In this document: piece after piece, positions 53,766 to 58,741 of the stretch
How positions within the stretch are numbered: position 1 is the first letter of the stretch
How the letters are laid out: each line of letters begins with the position of its first letter
Assembly (NCBI RefSeq): GCF_000217715.1
Contig: NC_015666.1
Span: 942,270-1,006,269 of the forward strand
Direction of reading: 5' to 3'
DNA length: 64,000 nucleotides
DNA from: Halopiger xanaduensis SH-6
GTDB lineage: Archaea; Halobacteriota; Halobacteria; Halobacteriales; Natrialbaceae
Position numbers and translations under genes: made by a program
The notes under the pieces: generated by a model
The model's database searches: none
The model's input: the letters and a program-made list of their open reading frames with translations, nothing else
What the model was told of the DNA's origin: nothing

Positions 53766-54419
53766 CTACCGTTCCTCCGACCTCGAGGTGGGGGCTCCCT
53801 CGAGAATCTCGACGCCGCTCGAGGCGCCGATCCGCTCGGCGCCGGCCTCGAGCATGGCGACGGCCTCGTCGTAGCTGCCGACGCCGCCGCTGGCCTTGAC
53901 GGGGAGGTACTCGCGCATGAGTTCGACGTCCTCGAGTTCGGCCCCGCCGTCGGCGAAGCCGGTCGACGTCTTGACCATCTTCGCGTCGGCCGCGACGGCG
54001 GCCTCGCAGGCCCGCCGTTTCTCCGCGTCGGAAAGCAGCGCCGTCTCGATTATGACCTTGACCGGGATCGGCACCGCGGCGACGATCTCGGCGAGTTCGG
54101 CGCGGACGACGTCGTCTTCGCCGGCTTTGAGCCGACCGACGTTGATGACGACGTCGAGTTCGTCCGCGCCGGCCTGCCAGGCGCGGACGCCCTCGCGGCG
54201 CTTGAGTTCGGGTTCGTTCTGGCCGTGCGGGAAGCCGACCACCGTCGCGAGCGTCACGTCGGGCGCGTAGTCGGCGGCCTCCTCGACGGCGTAGGGCGGA
54301 ATGCAGGCGTTCATGCCGTACTCCGCGGCCTCGTCGAGCACCGTCCGGACGTCCGCGGTCGTCGTCTCCGGGCCGAGGACGGTGTGATCGATCAGCGGGG
54401 CGAGTTCGCTGCGGTCCAT
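53766..54419 (-). CDS. deoC: Deoxyribose-phosphate aldolase
   Basis: Cleaves 2-deoxyribose-5-phosphate to acetaldehyde and glyceraldehyde-3-phosphate. A 217-residue TIM barrel. Motifs: [56 protein letters not shown] and the Schiff-base lysine in [14 protein letters not shown], closing with [14 protein letters not shown] and RIGASSG. TATA-like GGGTTTTTGACG lies about 27 nt upstream. Divergent from the R15P isomerase gene by 71 bp, so the two nucleoside-sugar genes share a promoter region. Confidence 0.96.
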
Positions 54420-54490
54420 AGCGGACCGACTCGCTGGATCGTCAAAAACCCGCCCGTTCCCTTTTGGTTCGGCGGGCGCAAGTCAGGGGT

Positions 54491-55537
54491 ATGAGCATGG
54501 ATTCGGATCAGCCCGACACCGACGTCACCGTCGCGCCGGCCGTCGCGGAAACCGCGGACGACATCGCCGAGATGCGGATCCGCGGCGCGGCGACGATCGC
54601 CGACGCGGCCGCCGAAGCGCTGGCCGTGCAGGCCGAGCGCTCCGAGGCGGAGACGCCGGCCGCCTTCCGCGAGCAGTTGCGGGCCGCCGCCCGAACCCTC
54701 TACGAGACCCGCCCGACCGCGGTCAGCCTCCCGAACGCCCTGCGGTACGTCCTCCGGGGGATGGAGGGCGAGACCGTCTCCGAACTCCGCGGGTCGACGA
54801 CCTCGCGCGCCGCAGAGTTCCGGGACGACTTAGAGCAAGCGCAGGCCACCCTCGGCGAGATCGGCGCCAACCGCCTGCGCGACGGCGACGTCGTGATGAC
54901 CCACTGCCACTCGACGGACGCCCTCTCCTGTATCGAGGCCGCCCTCGAGGACGGCAAGCACATCGAGGCGATCGTCAAGGAAACGCGACCCCGGAAGCAG
55001 GGCCACATCACGGCCCGCCAGCTGCGCGAGCTGGGCGTGCCGGTCACGCTGATCGTCGACAACGCGGCCCGCCGATACTTGGACGACGCGGATCACGTGC
55101 TGGTCGGCGCGGACAGCATCGCCGCCGACGGCAGCGTCATCAACAAGATCGGCACCAGCGGCCTGGCGGTCAACGCCCGCGAGCGCGGCGTGCCGGTGAT
55201 GGTCGCGGCGCAGACGATCAAGCTCCACCCCGACACGATGACGGGCCACACCGTCGCGATCGAGATGCGCGACGAACACGAGGTGCTGCCCGAGGACGAG
55301 CGAGCGGAGATCGTCGGCGACGGGACGGACTCGAGCGCCGAACCCGCCGCGGACGACGATGACGACGGCCTCACCGTCGAGAACCCCGCCTTCGACGTCA
55401 CCCCGCCCCGACACGTCGACGCGATCGTCACCGAGCGCGGCCAGTTCCCGCCCGAGAGCATCGTGACGCTGATGCGGGAACTGTTCGGCGAGACGACCGA
55501 CGAACCGTGGGAACGAGGCCGAGGCCGGGACCGCTGA
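54491..55537 (+). CDS. Ribose-1,5-bisphosphate isomerase
   Basis: A 348-residue eIF2B-related isomerase that converts ribose-1,5-bisphosphate to ribulose-1,5-bisphosphate. Diagnostic residues are Cys139 in VVMTHCHSTDALS and Asp208 in HVLVGADSI. The 69-residue spacing equals that of the characterised Thermococcus enzyme (Cys133, Asp202). RGAATIADAAAEALAVQA, ETRPRKQGHITARQL and GTSGLAVNARERGVPVMV complete the family pattern. The internal acidic insert (about 276-300) is haloarchaeal. No RuBisCO gene is in the window. With the nearby PfkB kinase and nucleoside phosphorylase it would channel nucleoside ribose. Confidence 0.93.
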   Translation: MSMDSDQPDTDVTVAPAVAETADDIAEMRIRGAATIADAAAEALAVQAERSEAETPAAFREQLRAAARTLYETRPTAVSLPNALRYVLRGMEGETVSELRGSTTSRAAEFRDDLEQAQATLGEIGANRLRDGDVVMTHCHSTDALSCIEAALEDGKHIEAIVKETRPRKQGHITARQLRELGVPVTLIVDNAARRYLDDADHVLVGADSIAADGSVINKIGTSGLAVNARERGVPVMVAAQTIKLHPDTMTGHTVAIEMRDEHEVLPEDERAEIVGDGTDSSAEPAADDDDDGLTVENPAFDVTPPRHVDAIVTERGQFPPESIVTLMRELFGETTDEPWERGRGRDR

Positions 55538-55631
55538 CTCGAACGGGAACGCGTCGGCCTCGAGTACCGTCTGCCGCGTCGAACAGTCGGTAATCGGAAA
55601 GTGTTAGTCGCTGGTGTGTACCACTACCTGT

Positions 55632-56453
55632 ATGGTATTACCAGAGGGGTTTGCCCTCCCGCCGTGGTACCTCCTCGTTCCGCTGCTGGTAGTGCTCGGC
55701 GGCACGCTCGCGCTGCTGTGGGCGCTCGAGCCGCCGGTCACCGATCGGACGGTCATTTCGTTCGCGCCGTGGATGATGTTCGGGTCGACGCTGCAGGTCC
55801 TGTACCGGCTCGAGGCCTTCCCCGACAGCATCGCGGTGCTGTTTACGGCGCCGAGCGTCTACCTCGTGACGGCGATCGTGGCGGGGCTGGTCTGGGTCGT
55901 GGGCATCTTCCTGCAGGCGGGCGGGCTCCAGCCGACGATCGAGCGCGTCGTCGGCGTCGCGGGCACCGGCTTCTTCGTCGTCTTCGCGATGTTCATCGTC
56001 CTCAGCGGCTGGAACGCCGGTTCGTTCTCGCCGTTCTGGCCAGTCATCGCCGTCGTCGTCGCCGGGATCGTGACCGCCCTCGCGTGGGTCGCGCTCGGCC
56101 TCTGGTTCACCGACGTCGCCGCGACGACGGGCGCGACCGGCGCGCTGGTCGTCTTCGGACAAACGATCGACGGCGTCTCGACGGCCGTCGGCTACGCCGT
56201 GCTGGGGTCCAGCGAGGAGGTCCCGCTCTCCCGGGCCATCCTCGAGGTCGGCAAATCGCTGCCGACCGCCGAGTACATCGGCGCCGGCTGGCTGTTCGTC
56301 CTCGTGAAGGTCGTCCTCGCGCTGGTCGTCCTCGGCCTGTTCAAGGAGTACGTCGAGGAGGAGCCCCGGCAGGCGCGGACGATCCTCGGGTTGCTGGCCG
56401 CTATCGGCCTCGGACCGGGGGTTCACAACACGTTGCTCTTTCTGGTAACGTAA
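55632..56453 (+). CDS. DUF63 family membrane protein
   Basis: A 273-residue integral membrane protein with about seven or eight TM segments: ALPPWYLLVPLLVVLGGTLALLWAL, LVTAIVAGLVWVVGIFLQ, GVAGTGFFVVFAMFIVLSGW, VIAVVVAGIVTALAWVALGLWF, TGALVVFGQTIDGVSTAVGYAVLG, FVLVKVVLALVVLGLF and others. APWMMFGSTLQVLYRLEAFP is a conserved loop. Archaeal DUF63 proteins are widespread and of unknown function. Starts at 55632. It lies between the R15P isomerase and PfkB genes on the same strand, so it may belong to the same locus. Confidence 0.86.
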   Translation: MVLPEGFALPPWYLLVPLLVVLGGTLALLWALEPPVTDRTVISFAPWMMFGSTLQVLYRLEAFPDSIAVLFTAPSVYLVTAIVAGLVWVVGIFLQAGGLQPTIERVVGVAGTGFFVVFAMFIVLSGWNAGSFSPFWPVIAVVVAGIVTALAWVALGLWFTDVAATTGATGALVVFGQTIDGVSTAVGYAVLGSSEEVPLSRAILEVGKSLPTAEYIGAGWLFVLVKVVLALVVLGLFKEYVEEEPRQARTILGLLAAIGLGPGVHNTLLFLVT

Positions 56454-56492
56454 ACTCTAGATTTTTCTCATCGGCGACCGTTTTTCCGACGA

Positions 56493-57383
56493 ATGGTACG
56501 GGTACTCTCCGCCGGTCACGTCAACTGGGACGTGACCCTCCGCGTCGATCGGCTCCCCGAAGCCGACGGCGAGGCGTCGATCCGCTCGCAACGTCAGTCC
56601 GGCGGCGGCAGCGCGGCTAACGTCGCCGCCGCCCTCGCCGGCCTCGAGGTCGACGCCGGTCTGATCGGCAGCGTCGGCGACGACGACAACGGCGTCCTCG
56701 CGCGACGCGACCTCGAGTCCGCGGGCGTCGACCTCGAGGGCGTCCGGATCGTCGAAGCGGGCCAGACGGCCGTCAAGTACCTGCTCGTCGACGACGACGG
56801 CGAGGTCGCGGTGCTCGGCAACGACGGCGTCAACGAGGCCGTCGGCCCGGAGGAAATCGACGAGCGTCGGATTCGGAACGCCGACCACGTCCACCTCACG
56901 AGTCAGCGTCCCGACACCGCCGCCGCCATCGCGCGAACGGCGAACGAGGCCGGGGTCACCGTCAGTTTCGACCCCGGCCGCCGGCTCGGGGACCGCGACT
57001 ACGGCGAGGCGCTCGCGGCCGCGGACGTCCTCTTCGCGAACGACCGGGAACTCGCGGCGCTGCTCGAGGACGAGTACGAGTACGTCGGCTCCGACTTCGA
57101 CGACCGGATCGTCGCCGTCAAACACGGGTCCGACGGCGCGGAAGTGCACACGCCGACCGGCTCGTACGTCCACCCGGGATTCGACGTCGACGCGGTCGAC
57201 ACGGCCGGCGCGGGCGACGCCTTCGCCGCCGGGTTCATCGCGACCTGGCTCACCGACGGCGACGTCGAACGCGCGCTCGAGTACGCGAACGCCTGCGGCG
57301 CGCTGACGGCCGGCCGAGAGGGGGCGCGCAGCGCGCCGACGGCGGATGCGGTCGCGGCGTTTCTCAGCGAGCGGTTTGATTAA
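56493..57383 (+). CDS. PfkB-family carbohydrate/nucleoside-sugar kinase
   Basis: A 296-residue ribokinase-fold kinase. The N-terminal substrate region is GHVNWDVTLRVDRLPEADG, then SGGGSAANVAAALAGLEVDAGLIGSVGDD. The C-terminal motif is VDTAGAGDAFAAGF with the catalytic Asp. Mid-region NDRELAALLED is the usual start of the PfkB inner helix. Its position 0.95 kb after the R15P isomerase and upstream of a nucleoside phosphorylase suggests it makes ribose-1,5-bisphosphate from ribose-1-phosphate; other sugars are possible. Ends 134 bp before the next gene. Confidence 0.92.
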   Translation: MVRVLSAGHVNWDVTLRVDRLPEADGEASIRSQRQSGGGSAANVAAALAGLEVDAGLIGSVGDDDNGVLARRDLESAGVDLEGVRIVEAGQTAVKYLLVDDDGEVAVLGNDGVNEAVGPEEIDERRIRNADHVHLTSQRPDTAAAIARTANEAGVTVSFDPGRRLGDRDYGEALAAADVLFANDRELAALLEDEYEYVGSDFDDRIVAVKHGSDGAEVHTPTGSYVHPGFDVDAVDTAGAGDAFAAGFIATWLTDGDVERALEYANACGALTAGREGARSAPTADAVAAFLSERFD

Positions 57384-57458
57384 AACGATTTATGATTGCC
57401 TTCGGGGGCGAATACGACGCTGTCGGGCGGTTCTCATCGGGTGCTGTCTGACGGTAAC

Positions 57459-57467
57459 TATATAAAT
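57459..57467 (+). promoter_or_regulatory. Strong TATA box tatataaat
   Basis: The best-matched archaeal TATA box in the window lies 51-59 bp before the HalOD1 start, implying a leader of about 30 nt. That leader holds GTCAC-N6-GTGAC (57494-57509) and ends with ggag (57510-57513), a rare Shine-Dalgarno-like site five bases before the ATG. Confidence 0.65.
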
Positions 57468-57517
57468 AGGGACGTTGGTCACCCGAATGAACAGTCACGG
57501 AGACGTGACGGAGAGAC

Positions 57518-57817
57518 ATGACGGATGGAAGGATACGCGAGTCCGACGAACGCCAGCGCGGTCGGCGGGTTCGATACGAGCGACCGGAAGGAGAGCCGCC
57601 GAGCATCGCTGCCGCGACGGCGCTGGCACGATACAACGACGAAGACGTCACCGCGGCCAGCACGCAACTGTACGATTACGTCGATCCGGAAGCGCTCGAC
57701 GCGCTGTTCGACGACACGTGCACTCGCGGCAGCCGCTCGGTCGCGGCCGTCGAGTTCGACGTCGACGGGGTGCGGGTGACCGTTCGCCCCGATCGCGTCG
57801 AGGTCGCCCCGAACTGA
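57518..57817 (+). CDS. HalOD1 output-domain protein
   Basis: A 99-residue protein with a single HalOD1 domain after a short charged lead. The pattern is PSIAAATALARYNDEDVTAASTQLYDYVDPEALDALFDDT, then VAAVEFDVDGVRVTVRPDRVEVAPN. The ggag four bases before the ATG makes this start likely, and tatataaat sits about 50 bp upstream. Overlapping longer frames in other phases are Arg-rich shadows. Lies within the nucleoside-sugar locus but is a common stand-alone regulator type. Confidence 0.83.
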   Translation: MTDGRIRESDERQRGRRVRYERPEGEPPSIAAATALARYNDEDVTAASTQLYDYVDPEALDALFDDTCTRGSRSVAAVEFDVDGVRVTVRPDRVEVAPN

Positions 57818-58012
57818 CTGTGCGTGGCGGGCGGGGGTGACCGGGGGTATCGTCTACGAACGCGGCGGGCGGCGCACGGCGACGGCTTCGAAGGCGGACG
57901 CTTTGCGGCGGGTGCTCGAGGTCGCGCGCCGCCGTCCGCGCCGTGGGTTCCGTTCCGTTGCGATGCTGCGGTTCTCGAACCTTTTTTCTCGTCACCGCGG
58001 AAACGCGCAGGC

Positions 58013-58741
58013 ATGGGAACGCAACCGCACCTGCTCGTCGAGGAAGGCGACCTGAACGACATCGCGCTCATCCCCGGCGATCCGGGACGAGTCGACCGCA
58101 TCGCCGACCACTGCGACGAGGCCGAGACGGTCGCGCAGAACCGCGAGTACAAACTCGTCAACGCGACCTACGAGGGTCGCGACCTGACGATCTGCTCGAC
58201 CGGCATCGGCTGTCCGTCGGCTGCGATCGCGATCGAGGAGATGGCCAACGTCGGCGTCGAGACGTTCGTCCGCGTCGGGACGACCGGCGCCCTCCAGTCG
58301 GAGATCGAGATCGGCGACATGATCGTCGCGACCGGCGCGGCGAAAAACGAGGGCACCTCGAAGCGCTACGAGGACGCCGAGTACCCCGCCGTGCCGGACT
58401 ACGACGTCCTCTCGGCGCTGGTCGACTCTGCGGAGACCAACGACGAGGACGTCCACGTCGGACCGATCGCCTCCGACGACGCCTTCTACGCCGAGACCGA
58501 CGAGTACGTCGCCGACTGGGAGGACGCGGGCCTGCTCTGCGTCGAGATGGAGGCCGCCGCGGTCTTCACGCTCGCGCGCCGGAAGGGACTGCGCGCCGGC
58601 GCGATCTGTACCGTCGACGGCAACCTCGTCGAGGGCACGCAGAAGGGGACCGACACCGAGGACGACGAACTCCCCGACAAGGCCAAGAACAACGTCGGCC
58701 GCGCGATCGACATCGCGCTCGAGGCTGCGACGGACCTGTAA
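58013..58741 (+). CDS. Nucleoside phosphorylase (uridine/guanosine phosphorylase-like)
   Basis: A 242-residue NP-1 family phosphorylase. GDPGRVDRIADHCDE is the phosphate/substrate loop, and CSTGIGCPSAAIAIEEM, VRVGTTGALQSEIEIGDMIVATGA and VEMEAAAVFTLARRKG are family motifs. It releases ribose-1-phosphate from a nucleoside; the base preference (uridine versus guanosine) is not evident. TATA-like CCTTTTTTCTC (57980-57988) lies about 25-33 nt before the ATG. Completes the putative ribose route with the PfkB kinase and R15P isomerase upstream. Confidence 0.93.
   Translation: MGTQPHLLVEEGDLNDIALIPGDPGRVDRIADHCDEAETVAQNREYKLVNATYEGRDLTICSTGIGCPSAAIAIEEMANVGVETFVRVGTTGALQSEIEIGDMIVATGAAKNEGTSKRYEDAEYPAVPDYDVLSALVDSAETNDEDVHVGPIASDDAFYAETDEYVADWEDAGLLCVEMEAAAVFTLARRKGLRAGAICTVDGNLVEGTQKGTDTEDDELPDKAKNNVGRAIDIALEAATDL

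Follow-up and report, generated by a model that had tools for sequence, protein, structure and literature searches.

The gene cluster and its surroundings

The stretch of DNA that we analysed, hereafter the window, comprises 64,000 nucleotides of a haloarchaeal chromosome (G000:C3:942270-1006269) from a Halopiger genome of 4.36 Mb, which is distributed over four contigs and is 99.98% complete. Between positions 53766 and 58741, a deoxyribose-phosphate aldolase gene (deoC) on the reverse strand is followed on the forward strand by genes for ribose-1,5-bisphosphate isomerase (R15Pi), a DUF63 membrane protein, a PfkB kinase, a HalOD1 domain protein and a nucleoside phosphorylase. A first-pass annotation had described this set within 5 kb, and we recovered each gene in its place with a strong family match (Table 1). 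Two start codons received minor corrections: DUF63 most likely begins at the ATG at position 55632, to judge from the family consensus MVLPxGF, and the phosphorylase most likely begins at the ATG at position 58013. The translation of deoC contains the Schiff-base motif VKTSTG.

The gene neighbourhood is kept across Natrialbaceae, and the genes flanking the locus were common only to L009 and L057, both Halobiforma. At the Natronococcus amylolyticus locus (L012), the distance between R15Pi and DUF63 is about 2.6 kb instead of the usual distance of about 0.1 kb, which suggests an insertion.

Table 1. Genes and candidate control elements of the locus, in window coordinates
Feature	Position	Strand	Remarks
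deoC, deoxyribose-phosphate aldolase	53766..54419	-	transcribed away from R15Pi gene; TIGR00126, 200 bits (cut-off 117)
Divergent promoter-like element CAAAAA(N)TTTTG, common to deoC and R15Pi	54443..54467	.	putative promoter
R15Pi, ribose-1,5-bisphosphate isomerase	54491..55537	+	TIGR00511, 457 bits (cut-off 314)
Promoter-like element upstream of DUF63	55591..55609	+	position kept in most haloarchaeal genomes scanned
DUF63 membrane protein (paralogue B)	55632..56453	+	PF01889, 62 bits (cut-off 25)
PfkB kinase, R1PK model	56493..57383	+	NF053626, 497 bits (cut-off 330)
TATA-like box TATATAAATAG upstream of HalOD1	57459..57469	+	read directly from the sequence
Inverted repeat GTCACGGAGACGTGAC (GTCAC-N6-GTGAC) just before HalOD1 start	57494..57509	.	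occurs once in the window
HalOD1 domain protein, possible regulator	57518..57817	+	PF18545, 71 bits (cut-off 26)
Nucleoside phosphorylase, Urdpase1-like	58013..58741	+	PF01048, 164 bits (cut-off 25)

Enzymes of the route and the probable fate of ribulose-1,5-bisphosphate

The isomerase translated from the ATG at position 54491 carries both catalytic residues, Cys139 and Asp208, with the 69-residue spacing claimed in the first-pass annotation; the corresponding pairs in the characterised enzymes are Cys133/Asp202 in Thermococcus kodakarensis and Cys135/Asp204 in Pyrococcus horikoshii. Furthermore, alignment of the protein with a solved structure, that of R15Pi from Pyrococcus (5yfj), gave an E-value of 1.9e-89. 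Because it belongs to a wider superfamily, matching PF01008 and, below their cut-offs, also MtnA models, we considered whether it could be an eIF2B-type protein or a methylthioribose-1-phosphate isomerase, in which case the cluster would encode no bisphosphate pathway. This is almost certainly not so: only the R15Pi model passes its equivalog-level cut-off, the top structure matches are solved R15Pi enzymes, and the catalytic cysteine, which eIF2B alpha has lost, is kept, while two other, weaker superfamily members elsewhere in the genome could take eIF2B- or MtnA-type roles. In crenarchaeal-type archaeal loci (L075-L078, L080-L083 and L086), two R15Pi-like genes stand in tandem, at some of the loci after a PfkB-like kinase gene.

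The PfkB kinase is probably a ribose-1-phosphate kinase (R1PK), since it scores above the R1PK equivalog cut-off. The phosphorylase reaches 220 bits against the 'uridine phosphorylase' model TIGR01718, below the cut-off of 280; as it stays below the cut-offs of the named substrate models, its substrate is not fixed by sequence. A characterised homologue prefers guanosine despite being annotated as a uridine phosphorylase (PMC9700705).

Subsequently, the whole genome was searched for the steps that would consume ribulose-1,5-bisphosphate (RuBP). Both enzymes named in the first-pass annotation, RuBP phosphatase and ribulose-1-phosphate aldolase, were found as adjacent genes outside the window. 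The phosphatase, a HAD hydrolase assigned as ribulose-1,5-bisphosphate 5-phosphatase, matches NF053830 with 388 bits (cut-off 330), and the gene directly after it encodes the aldolase, the sole class II aldolase of the genome (NF053831, 369.5 bits, cut-off 300). A glycolaldehyde reductase is encoded on contig C4 (NF053832, 627 bits, cut-off 550); the genome holds four Fe-ADH_2 matches, one of which, on C3, is glycerol-1-phosphate dehydrogenase (536 versus a cut-off of 413). The absence of RuBisCO, until then established for the window, extends to the whole genome, in which PF00016 found no match, and NMP phosphorylase gave only a partial TIGR03327 match across the genome (34.9 bits against a cut-off of 535).

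These above-cut-off models, the downstream genes and the absence of RuBisCO support salvage of nucleoside ribose through pentose bisphosphates, as first proposed, and we consider it very probable that the genes of the locus make up the upper half of a pathway already described, the non-carboxylating pentose bisphosphate pathway. Of the three findings that the first-pass annotation had named as refuting this reading, a RuBisCO gene elsewhere and a lack of neighbourhood conservation are contradicted outright, and a kinase restricted to other sugars is contradicted at sequence level. The gene content is observed directly, whereas curated families and published enzymes are the basis from which the single activities are inferred. 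The likely substrate of the phosphorylase is guanosine, which it would cleave to the free base and ribose-1-phosphate; R1PK would convert the latter to ribose-1,5-bisphosphate and R15Pi would form RuBP from it. RuBP phosphatase and then ribulose-1-phosphate aldolase would yield dihydroxyacetone phosphate and glycolaldehyde, and the reductase encoded on another contig would reduce glycolaldehyde to ethylene glycol. The divergent deoC would take care of deoxyribose phosphate.

This pathway is already published, and the Halopiger genome is one further complete case. Operons of R15Pi, kinase and phosphorylase in haloarchaea and the HAD-FucA pair were reported by Sato et al. 2022 (PMC9700705), together with enzyme assays for the same gene set. 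In comparison with that pathway of halophilic archaea, we found the same enzymes, with the phosphorylase recognised by its family and by a gene position like the published one, the same R15Pi/kinase/phosphorylase cluster with the HAD-FucA pair elsewhere, and the same lack of RuBisCO and NMP phosphorylase. Nothing in its enzyme content sets the Halopiger genome apart, so the pathway as such is an ordinary one. Neither deoC nor DUF63 is named in the main text of that report. The classical pentose bisphosphate pathway of Thermococcales likewise runs from nucleoside through ribose-1-phosphate and ribose-1,5-bisphosphate to RuBP by way of R15Pi, but it uses an ADP-dependent R1PK, RuBisCO and NMP phosphorylase, the last two of which the Halopiger genome lacks.

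We then surveyed 106 haloarchaeal genomes, each at least 95% complete, with counts that ignore kinship. R15Pi was present in 65 of them and R1PK in 78 (77 above the cut-off and one 3 bits below), while ribulose-1-phosphate aldolase exceeded its cut-off in 37 and RuBisCO was found in 36. Every aldolase-bearing genome also had R15Pi (37/37), and the 65 genomes with R15Pi divided into 29 with the aldolase only, 27 with RuBisCO only, eight with both and one with neither. These counts support the published rule, according to which the RuBP formed by R15Pi has one of two consumers, RuBisCO or the pair of phosphatase and aldolase.

In the genomes that combine R15Pi, RuBisCO and the aldolase (G131, G156, G171, G185, G213, G220, G221 and G234), RuBP could go either way. 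Fragmentary matches to the RuBisCO large subunit, possibly decaying genes, occurred in four genomes of the family to which the Halopiger genome belongs (G054, G103, G115 and G120), and G054 also has the aldolase.

Candidate control elements

The element between deoC and R15Pi recurs in most aligned Natrialbaceae loci as CAAAAA-cCCGCCCGatC-TTTT, with each of its T-rich boxes about 26-31 nt from the respective start codon. The general form AAAA-N6-22-TTTT was present between deoC and R15Pi in 8 of 21 loci and between deoC and DUF63 in 0 of 34.

Upstream of DUF63, the pattern [GCT]AA[ACG]NN[TG]TT occurred 33-37 nt before the start codon in 85 of 102 genomes, a count that ignores kinship and concerns a pattern chosen after inspection of the sequences; shuffled sequences gave a mean of 0.5 and a maximum of 5. 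An earlier, narrower expression (GGAA-N1-3-TT) had matched 23/102. Where R15Pi lies directly upstream of DUF63, the element was still present (29/32 genomes), and the same scan before other genes found it at R1PK in 2/56, at deoC in 1/73 and at the phosphorylase in 11/74. That DUF63 has the element and R1PK mostly does not suggests that the two form a transcription unit of their own with DUF63 as its first gene. The genes of the locus thus appear to be arranged in two or three transcription units rather than in one operon.

HalOD1, which the first-pass annotation had proposed as a control component, recurs at this position in 16 of 17 genomes belonging to the family of the Halopiger genome and in 4 of 8 of another. 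The TATAT core of its upstream box is kept in nearly all Natrialbaceae loci. The inverted repeat GTCAC-N6-GTGAC is expected 0.15 times by chance in the window. Of the loci L009-L079, 32 carry HalOD1, and 30 of these have exactly one copy of the repeat, just upstream of that gene. Within Natrialbaceae, it was noted upstream of HalOD1 at loci L009-L038, L057, L071 and L072. The repeat could also fold as an RNA hairpin (-9.6 kcal/mol, z-score -3.3), and it may therefore be an operator or a hairpin in a leader RNA; its arms are invariant, so covariation cannot tell the two apart. Conserved place, box and dyad together make local control by HalOD1 plausible within one lineage. With two conserved control-like DNA elements, regulation of the cluster becomes testable.

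Position and predicted structure of DUF63

The first-pass annotation had raised the question of whether DUF63 co-occurs with R15Pi. It does not do so in any specific sense: DUF63 paralogue B was present in 106/106 haloarchaeal genomes, 27 of which lack both R15Pi and R1PK, and is thus universal in haloarchaea whether the pathway is present or absent. A larger draw of 243 genomes contained the family without exception, usually in two copies, and it also occurs in methanogens.

Among the 78 genomes with R1PK, DUF63-B has that gene as a same-strand neighbour in 55, from eight families; among the 65 genomes with R15Pi, the isomerase gene is such a neighbour in 36. Within 4 kb of DUF63-B (n=106), the phosphorylase was found in 74 genomes, deoC in 66, R1PK in 56 and R15Pi in 38. 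Whenever deoC was near, it lay divergently upstream (66/66), while the phosphorylase (73/74) and R1PK (55/56) lay downstream on the same strand. An exclusive pair of DUF63 and R15Pi was rejected; DUF63 instead follows R1PK and the phosphorylase. In 24 of the 27 genomes without R15Pi and R1PK, deoC and/or the phosphorylase still stood beside DUF63-B. DUF63-B is therefore tied by position to the nucleoside-breakdown block and is unlikely to be a part specific to the pathway. The simplest reading is an older block of deoC, DUF63 and phosphorylase, into which the bisphosphate enzymes were optionally inserted. In eight genomes of family f6 (L186-L193), neither R1PK nor a Urdpase1-type phosphorylase is near DUF63, and a gene for NAD synthase lies just downstream instead.

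Against this background, a DUF63 protein dedicated to the pentose bisphosphate pathway, for example as an uptake system, appears improbable to us. Its place between R15Pi and R1PK in the Halopiger locus, its same-strand adjacency to R1PK elsewhere and the rarity of the upstream element before R1PK, as if both genes shared one transcript, speak for such a role, but its universality, its attachment to deoC and the phosphorylase where the pathway enzymes are missing, and its occurrence in methanogens argue against it. Nor is uptake, the example given in the first-pass annotation, specially indicated. Nucleoside uptake need not depend on DUF63, since another part of the genome encodes one substrate-binding protein of the BMP type, a class with members that serve nucleoside uptake (its best named NCBIfam match is weak and is no nucleoside model).

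There is a better chance, albeit one we would still bet against, that the position of DUF63 is inherited synteny devoid of functional meaning. Inherited synteny does contribute, since genes for an unrelated MiaB-like methylthiotransferase (42/106) and a K+ channel (36/106) are likewise kept nearby; moreover, 14 of the 106 genomes have none of the four nucleoside genes within 4 kb of DUF63-B. Conversely, DUF63 stays beside R1PK where R15Pi is distant or missing, the strands of deoC, phosphorylase and R1PK relative to it are nearly invariant, and short same-strand gaps between DUF63 and R1PK recur in eight families.

The protein itself matches the DUF63 family (PF01889) over most of its length, and the residues invariant in an alignment of 73 DUF63-B sequences include D186, T190, E201, K232 and N272. 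Its AlphaFold model has high confidence and is almost wholly helical (mean pLDDT 93.2, pTM 0.88). Sequence and profile searches of the PDB returned no relative, and a Foldseek comparison of the model with the PDB gave no match at E <=0.001 (best E 0.15, TM-scores up to about 0.33); the predicted fold would thus be new relative to the PDB only. In the literature, the DUF63 protein HVO_2859 is listed among OxsR ChIP-seq targets, and a literature search on nucleoside transport in haloarchaea returned nothing usable.

As a resident of the wider nucleoside-breakdown block, DUF63 may have a membrane function linked to the traffic of nucleosides, sugars or bases. We put forward, as a tentative and rather unlikely proposal, that DUF63-B provides a membrane component hitherto missing from nucleoside catabolism in haloarchaea, serving base export or the movement of nucleosides, sugars or ethylene glycol, with a fold absent from the PDB, and that the pentose bisphosphate enzymes are optional additions to an older block of deoC, DUF63 and phosphorylase. 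What the locus offers beyond the known pathway is a lead on DUF63, an uncharacterised and apparently universal membrane family of the haloarchaea.
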